A stretch of 34,251 nucleotides of DNA from contig JAKLPW010000423.1 in assembly GCA_022013675.1 (NCBI GenBank), forward strand, positions 1 to 34,251. Reading direction: 5' to 3'. Source of the DNA: Anaerolineae bacterium (GTDB lineage Bacteria; Chloroflexota; Anaerolineae; JAKLPW01). Below, in pieces: positions 2,751-3,124 of this stretch. Under the pieces are notes generated by a model. That model ran no database searches. It had not been told where the DNA came from and saw only the letters and a list, made by a program, of their open reading frames with translations. The position numbers and the translations under genes are program-made. Every line of letters begins with the position of its first letter. The first letter of the stretch is position 1.

Positions 2751-2960
2751 CTCCATATGAAGAAAGGCTATGAGCAGGAGTAGTAGGCCATCCCCACAGA
2801 GAGCCGGGTATCATGCCAGGTGTGAGCCGGGCAAAGCGCCACTGGGGAGCGCTGCACAGGCTGAACTCGCCTGGGAGCCATGGTGGTGAAACATGGATAG
2901 CTGCCATCGCCTGGCAATCGTTAACTTGCCGTAGAGCGGATAGATCATACGTTGATTCAT

Positions 2961-3033
2961 GGGGCTGTAGCTCAGCTGGGAGAGCGCCTGAATGGCATTC
3001 AGGAGGTCAGGGGTTCGAATCCCCTCAGCTCCA
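2961..3033 (+). tRNA. tRNA-Ala (anticodon GGC), nested inside the leuS T-box leader
   Basis: A 73-nt cloverleaf with the same acceptor (G3:U70 wobble), D-arm and T-arm as the tRNA at 2678, but anticodon stem CCTGA/TCAGG and loop ATGGCAT (anticodon GGC, reading GCC/GCU). No encoded CCA. Both tRNAs share 26 identical nt at the 5' end and about 29 at the 3' end including the trailing CTC, suggesting duplication. Every arm pairs properly, so it should be functional. Flanking TGAT (2953-2956) and ATCA (3037-3040) could extend the structure below the acceptor stem. A weak TTGCCG...TACGTT pair upstream is not a convincing promoter. Confidence 0.95.
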
Positions 3034-3097
3034 CTCATCACTGCCCGCGGAGGCAAGGCCTCTGTGATCTATCAAGCAGGGTGGTACCACGGAGCGG

Positions 3098-3124
3098 CCC
3101 TTCGTCCCTGAGACGAAGGGTTTT
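3098..3124 (+). terminator. T-box-controlled terminator before leuS
   Basis: A 9-bp stem CCCTTCGTC/GACGAAGGG with loop CCTGA, followed by TTTT. Its 5' arm overlaps the 3' strand of the antiterminator, so the two structures exclude each other. Confidence 0.93.

Follow-up and report, generated by a model that had tools for sequence, protein, structure and literature searches.

The leuS gene of the window, as we call the 34,251-nt stretch of Anaerolineae DNA analysed here, is preceded by a leader in which the parts of a leucine T-box surround a complete tRNA-Ala(GGC) gene. The elements, in order along the forward strand, are:

2635-2663, + strand, predicted sigma-70 promoter (TTGACA, 17 nt, TATACT; 11/12 consensus matches)
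2678-2751, + strand, tRNA-Ala(CGC), directly 5′ of Stem I (ARAGORN; Rfam, 65.2 bits)
2761-2879, + strand, T-box Stem I, the sensor, with AGTA and AGAGAG motifs (Rfam RF00230 alignment)
2866-2868, + strand, specifier codon CTC (Leu) (sequence)
2880-2933, + strand, Stem II and IIA/B pseudoknot region with a CGTTA motif (Rfam alignment)
2934-2938, + strand, RRRNG motif (GAGCG), immediately 5′ of Stem III (sequence)
2939-2947, + strand, Stem III 5′ arm GATAGATCA (inverted repeat, fold, covariation)
2961-3034, + strand, nested tRNA-Ala(GGC) (ARAGORN and Rfam)
3065-3073, + strand, Stem III 3′ arm TGATCTATC, then a conserved AA at 3074-3075 (inverted repeat, fold)
3074-3112, + strand, antiterminator with the T-box sequence; UGGU bulge at 3082-3085 (Rfam alignment, sequence)
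3096-3122, + strand, intrinsic terminator hairpin, then a T-rich tail (sequence)
3144-5935, + strand, leuS (leucyl-tRNA synthetase), starting with ATG, GGAGG 5′ of the ATG (TIGR00396, 938 bits)

A longer form of leuS, starting at GTG 3125 rather than at ATG 3144, is less likely. The succession of tRNA, sensor, tRNA, switch and leuS is predicted to constitute one transcript. A preliminary description of this DNA had reported the nested tRNA, Stem I and the antiterminator/terminator; tRNA-Ala(CGC) at 2678-2751, the promoter ahead of it and the 9-bp Stem III arms are new. Farther upstream, on the opposite strand, an ORF for an S18-like ribosomal protein (1424-1957, − strand) is extended at its N terminus by a long series of RSDDRGG repeats and is adjoined by an S6-like ORF (1977-2267, − strand).

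The Rfam T-box model RF00230 matched the leader as a single unit from 2761 to 3112, over its full length (model positions 1-219), with a score of 64.6 bits (E = 9e-14 in a 600-nt search, 1.4e-13 in the whole genome). Relative to the model, the Rfam alignment places a 118-nt insertion in the Stem III loop. The score falls below the Rfam gathering cut-off of 93 bits, which is a limit for detection and not a structural feature. The long insertion is probably one cause of the low score of the window leader, since 16 of 19 nested relatives, mostly with shorter inserts, exceed the cut-off and reach 94-133 bits across their tRNA. We nevertheless filed the leader as a T-box because of its genome-wide E-value and because every structural feature tested was present. 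The specifier context GAA-CTC lies at 2864-2868, and its leucine codon agrees with the identity of the downstream gene. GAGCG at 2934-2938, the two arms (2939-2947 and 3065-3073) and AA at 3074-3075 reproduce the RRRNG - Stem III - AA context, the RRRNG motif before Stem III being as defined in the TBDB paper (PMC7778990). The antiterminator, AAGCAGGGTGGTACCACGG, and the terminator at 3096-3122 are both canonical; they compete, and the antiterminator bears the UGGN bulge (AGGGTGGTACCACGG). From these features, we propose that the leader is a transcriptional leucine T-box responding to uncharged tRNA-Leu. The minimum-energy fold of the whole 379-nt leader (z = −0.47) showed nothing that could be recognised as a T-box, which is to be expected at such a length, and was set aside. 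ARAGORN, Rfam and the single RF00230 match thus bear out the initial claim that a complete tRNA-Ala(GGC) lies inside a leucine T-box; so do the Rfam alignment and the sequence for a canonical Stem I with its CTC specifier and a canonical antiterminator/terminator, and the covariance model, which scores Stem I and antiterminator as one leader here and does so above the gathering score in the 16 relatives.

Nested tRNA-Ala(GGC) genes in other bacteria

The layout was sought with a pattern (GTTCRANTCC...GGGTGGNACCRC) that detects any tRNA T-arm with any T-box sequence no more than ~80 nt downstream. The scan, of one genome per species, gave at least 120 stretches, and genome searches were added afterwards. 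Matches with tRNA-Cys, Pro, Leu, Ser, Gln, Asp, Arg, Lys or Phe were discarded as apparently due to chance; they were without T-box context wherever their sequence was inspected. Scan and searches together gave at least 142 non-identical nested loci, and ARAGORN identified the tRNA of all 142 as tRNA-Ala(GGC). The specifier is Leu CTC in 127 of the 142 leaders and was unrecognised in 11.

Judged by the record titles, from which the class names used here are also taken, nesting occurs in at least six phyla: in Chloroflexota (Anaerolineae, Ktedonobacteria), Thermomicrobiota, Armatimonadota, Atribacterota, Coprothermobacterota, Caldisericota and Bacillota (Syntrophomonas, Thermosyntropha, Desulfofundulus, Desulfotruncus, Desulfallas), named isolates included. 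In its strict form, the pattern was found in 44 of 400 Chloroflexota species (one of the 44 apparently a chance match), in 49 of 63 species of the Bacillota class of Thermosyntropha and in 15 of 80 of the class of Desulfotruncus. The T-box-rich Clostridia (class of Oribacterium) gave 0/195, one chance match in Oribacterium being left out. In a tree of LeuS proteins, a split with full support divides Bacillota from Chloroflexota/Thermomicrobiota/Armatimonadota, and nested members stand on either side of it. Because nesting spans this deep division, the layout is either old or was handed on in the form of a leader, and does not stem from recent transfer of one leuS gene.

Relatives of the window confirm the position of the tRNA inside the leader, except for a minority of Anaerolineae in which it lies upstream. 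The layout of the window is shared by about 27 of 60 Anaerolineae genomes. An ordinary T-box preceded by both tRNA-Ala genes occurs in about 12, and several others possess the tRNA pair but no T-box. Genomes without nesting carry the GGC gene elsewhere. Un-nested relatives close Stem III in the same way around a loop of 3 to 83 nt that is short or filled with repeats, which marks the tip of Stem III as a tolerant site. The Stem III loops of two un-nested Anaerolineae loci, L210 (genome G055) and L197 (G033), measure 67-83 nt and are occupied by unrelated sequence; that of L210 is made of short tandem repeats (CGATCAC). In some genomes, a different gene stands first after the leader, and leuS follows at a distance of 1-3 kb. 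Instead of leuS, an ilvE-like aminotransferase (loci L102, L157, L159, L161, L170) or an acyl-CoA synthetase (L068, L082, L146, L155, L171) follows the nested leucine T-box at some loci, these names resulting from a reading of the translations alone. Stem I is much shortened in L096, L129 (Coprothermobacterota) and L137 (Caldisericota), where the leader spans ~240 nt including the tRNA.

The window tRNA, called alike by ARAGORN and Rfam (2961-3033/3034; 68.1 bits), has a cloverleaf fold, anticodon GGC, the G3:U70 pair and A73. The 142 nested copies represent 91 distinct sequences, and every one of them has G3:U70, A73 and the full seven acceptor pairs. The CCA end is encoded in 94 and absent in 48, among them the window copy (CTCCACTC). 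A search for GGC tRNAs in 55 genomes with nesting returned a match in 52; in 51 of these 52, no match other than the nested copy had its anticodon stem paired. The nested copy is also the sole one in Syntrophomonas wolfei subsp. methylbutyratica and in Thermosyntropha lipolytica, bringing the total to 53/54. The exception is Tengunoibacter (G115; Ktedonobacteria), where a second, ordinary GGC copy lies un-nested in a 5S-tRNA cluster. In the genome assembly of the window, the nested gene was the only intact GGC copy found; a second GGC-like match, on contig C252, was discarded on account of its unpaired anticodon stem. Many of the genomes searched are drafts, so that "only copy" holds as a strong tendency and is not proven genome by genome. 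Where the nested copy is the sole GGC gene, the tRNA must be excised from the leader. Its being the only intact copy in nearly all genomes checked strongly implies that the nested tRNA is matured and aminoacylated in the cell.

Stem III and promoters

In the window, positions 2939-2947 and 3065-3073 form a perfect 9-nt inverted repeat, giving 9 bp that enclose the tRNA. Folded in isolation, segment 2934-3078 adopts Stem III around the cloverleaf. Applied to alignment A1, RNAalifold recovered the cloverleaf and, in place of Stem III, a small hairpin. The helix was missed because it spans long gapped loops; covariation was therefore counted directly on the named helix. In 44 diverse leaders, 96.6% of the Stem III cells are paired and all four pairs tested show changes on both sides; cells with such changes number 50, against 13.5 in shuffles. 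Sliding the partner strand by 1-3 columns reduces the pairing to 14-47% in the same leaders. Among 75 distinct arm pairs, a mean of 5.33 of 7 positions are paired, as compared with 3.72 ± 0.11 in 2000 permutations. The AA following Stem III is kept in 134 of the 142 nested leaders. One of the options raised in the preliminary description, that the two halves of the leader stay joined by pairing, thus receives direct support from the two Stem III arms, which pair around the tRNA and covary.

The sequence at 2635-2663 is the only strong predicted promoter ahead of the window leader. The gap between tRNA-Ala(CGC) and the Stem I motif AGTA amounts to 25 nt in the window and mostly to 21-34 nt in its group. 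It leaves no room in the window for a separate promoter, and the leader transcript is predicted to yield tRNA-Ala(CGC) first. A promoter between the nested tRNA and the antiterminator, which would have spoken against a composite leader, is absent from the window. Promoter-like sequences (≥9/12) occur just before the upstream tRNA-Ala in all 52 loci carrying that tRNA and before Stem I in 53 of the 61 leaders without it. In these 61 leaders, no promoter-like sequence of ≥10/12 was found between specifier and tRNA. Taken together, the three tests, namely covariation, promoter placement and discriminator context, all point to T-box and tRNA forming one RNA unit.

In Ktedonobacteria (13 loci), the interval from Stem II to the nested tRNA contains a promoter-like sequence. 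At L091, L063, L162, L163 and L231-L242, it is a conserved TTGTCG-17-TATAAT-like sequence that overlaps the conserved CGTTA region and possibly acts as an internal promoter. In view of this sequence ahead of the tRNA, and of the one species with a second GGC copy, the coupling between tRNA and T-box may be looser in this group. A separate observation concerns the two tRNA genes of the window: tRNA-Ala(CGC) and the nested GGC copy share 88% identity, and two 77-nt direct repeats thus flank Stem I. Recombination between these repeats would delete the sensor.

A leader of proposed dual use

We propose, with a probability that we put at roughly 0.75, that the leader serves two ends, being a working leucine T-box whose Stem III loop holds the usually sole tRNA-Ala(GGC) gene and, by the same token, a tRNA precursor. 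The proposal starts from the observed architecture, the covariation, the integrity of the tRNA, its near-universal single-copy status and the promoter-like sequences. Transcription would start upstream (in the window, before tRNA-Ala(CGC)) and cross Stem I and Stem II, the nested tRNA and the antiterminator/terminator as one co-transcribed unit. With charged tRNA-Leu, it would stop at the terminator, leaving a short RNA that still contains the tRNA(s); uncharged tRNA-Leu would stabilise the antiterminator and allow read-through to leuS. Since polymerase would pass the tRNA before the terminator in every round, tRNA-Ala(GGC) could be obtained from every transcript, terminated or not, and leuS only under leucine starvation. 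The output of the tRNA would thus be independent of that of leuS, and alanine tRNA supply would follow the promoter rate whatever the leucine status. RNase P and 3′-end enzymes would excise the tRNA after the switch decision, the Stem III arms holding the sensor and switch halves together until excision and briefly after; were the cut to come early, Stem III (9 bp in the window) could keep the halves joined. In the window, the terminator is complete ~85 nt after the tRNA 3′ end. As polymerase needs only this short stretch beyond the tRNA, the switch decision most likely precedes cutting by RNase P and 3′-end enzymes. In S. aureus, RNase Y cleaves the T-box leaders of valS, leuS and serS at a point after Stem I and before the T-box in the course of normal turnover (PMC4608709); a cut in the same interval, at the position of the tRNA, is therefore plausible and would be harmless. 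Both the short distance and this precedent favour another of the options initially considered, that cutting is delayed until the decision has been made.

Of the other explanations, that of an artefact, whether an independent tRNA beside a dead T-box or a mis-assembly, could appeal to the origin of the window in a draft of 526 contigs. The comparative data refute it, and we give it practically no weight: 142 non-identical loci from at least six phyla, named isolates among them, show the layout, the arms covary across the tRNA and the T-box-rich Clostridia yielded none in 195 species. Quite another standing has the idea of a historical accident, to which we grant a little less than even odds: the tRNA would have entered a tolerant loop once, become the sole GGC gene and so been impossible to lose, without helping or hindering the T-box. 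The free variation of un-nested Stem III loops (3 to 83 nt, some repeat-filled) and the presence of a GGC gene elsewhere in genomes without nesting agree with such a history, while the occurrence of nesting on both sides of the deep LeuS split makes for a long time in a neutral state. Its mechanism is that of the dual-use leader and the difference lies in selection only, so that our confidence in the one overlaps with that in the other.

Processing might itself be part of the control, cutting of the nested tRNA by RNase P and 3′-end enzymes setting the fate of the leader. An early cut, before polymerase reaches the terminator, would separate sensor from switch; a late one, after read-through, would shorten the leuS mRNA so that a stable 5′ end results at the antiterminator hairpin, an intrinsic equivalent of the cleavage by RNases in ordinary T-box leaders. 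The tRNA does occupy the interval of the RNase Y cuts in the S. aureus valS, leuS and serS leaders (PMC4608709), and nesting has been kept in 49 of 63 species of one Bacillota class even though Stem III tolerates other fillers. We nonetheless hold this to be unlikely, as ~85 nt leave little time for cutting before the decision, and the several Anaerolineae that have a T-box with the tRNA outside the leader indicate that regulation there does not need nesting. Less probable by far is a sensing in cis, in which the nested tRNA, while still extended, would compete through its ACCA end for the UGGU bulge and tune the switch to tRNA-Ala maturation. A73 in all nested tRNAs, the CCA encoded in 94 of 142 and the placing of the bulge some 10-70 nt from the tRNA end would suit it; the 48 of 142 that lack an encoded CCA, the window copy included, do not, and tRNA end and bulge are both constant, which precludes a search for covariation between them. 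By either route, through RNase P and 3′-end cutting or through the extended tRNA end, tRNA-Ala maturation would be coupled to the leucine switch and selection would explain the persistence of nesting across at least six phyla. We regard such coupling as doubtful; if it were real, the leader would link alanine-tRNA supply to leucine-tRNA charging.

Relation to known systems

What makes the dual-use leader of wider interest is that a widespread class of regulatory RNA apparently carries a tRNA, usually the sole gene for its anticodon, within its switching domain. If the proposal is right, the T-box discriminator can work while a folded insert of 75 nt occupies the Stem III tip. Antitermination and processing by RNase P would take place on one molecule, making the order of folding, decision and cutting testable in cultured species that have the layout (Syntrophomonas wolfei, Thermosyntropha lipolytica, Desulfofundulus, Ktedonobacter). 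For annotation, the locus is a warning that overlapping tRNA and T-box calls can both be correct, as they are here. The preliminary description knew of no T-box of this kind, and the open-licence literature, the TBDB paper (PMC7778990) included, yielded no account of a T-box that encloses a tRNA gene; a prior report elsewhere is possible. In kind, this is a T-box with a tRNA; the layout was not to be expected, and with so wide a distribution it is a general phenomenon and not a curiosity.

With the transcriptional leucine T-box (RF00230), the leader shares the AGTA/AGAGAG Stem I, GAA-CTC, the IIA/B element, the RRRNG - Stem III - AA context, the UGGU antiterminator, the terminator and leuS. 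It differs from the ordinary form in that the Stem III loop contains a complete tRNA-Ala(GGC) gene and in that, in the group of the window, a second tRNA gene forms the start of the transcript. Ordinary tRNA-Ala(GGC) genes, including those cotranscribed with mRNA, have the same cloverleaf, G3:U70 and A73; here, the tRNA lies inside a regulatory fold whose halves pair around it, rather than beside one. The S. aureus leaders cut by RNase Y have in common with it the interval between Stem I and the T-box sequence (PMC4608709), the cut being a prediction in the present case. In S. aureus, it amounts to decay or trimming by an mRNA-processing nuclease, whereas here a cut by RNase P and 3′-end enzymes, with a useful product, is predicted. 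The B. subtilis thrS T-box leader is also cleaved by an RNase. Tandem and two-codon T-boxes are composite architectures that combine tRNA-binding regulatory elements. To our knowledge, none of them encodes a tRNA; a composite architecture is thus common to them and to the leader described here, and only the latter has a tRNA gene within it.
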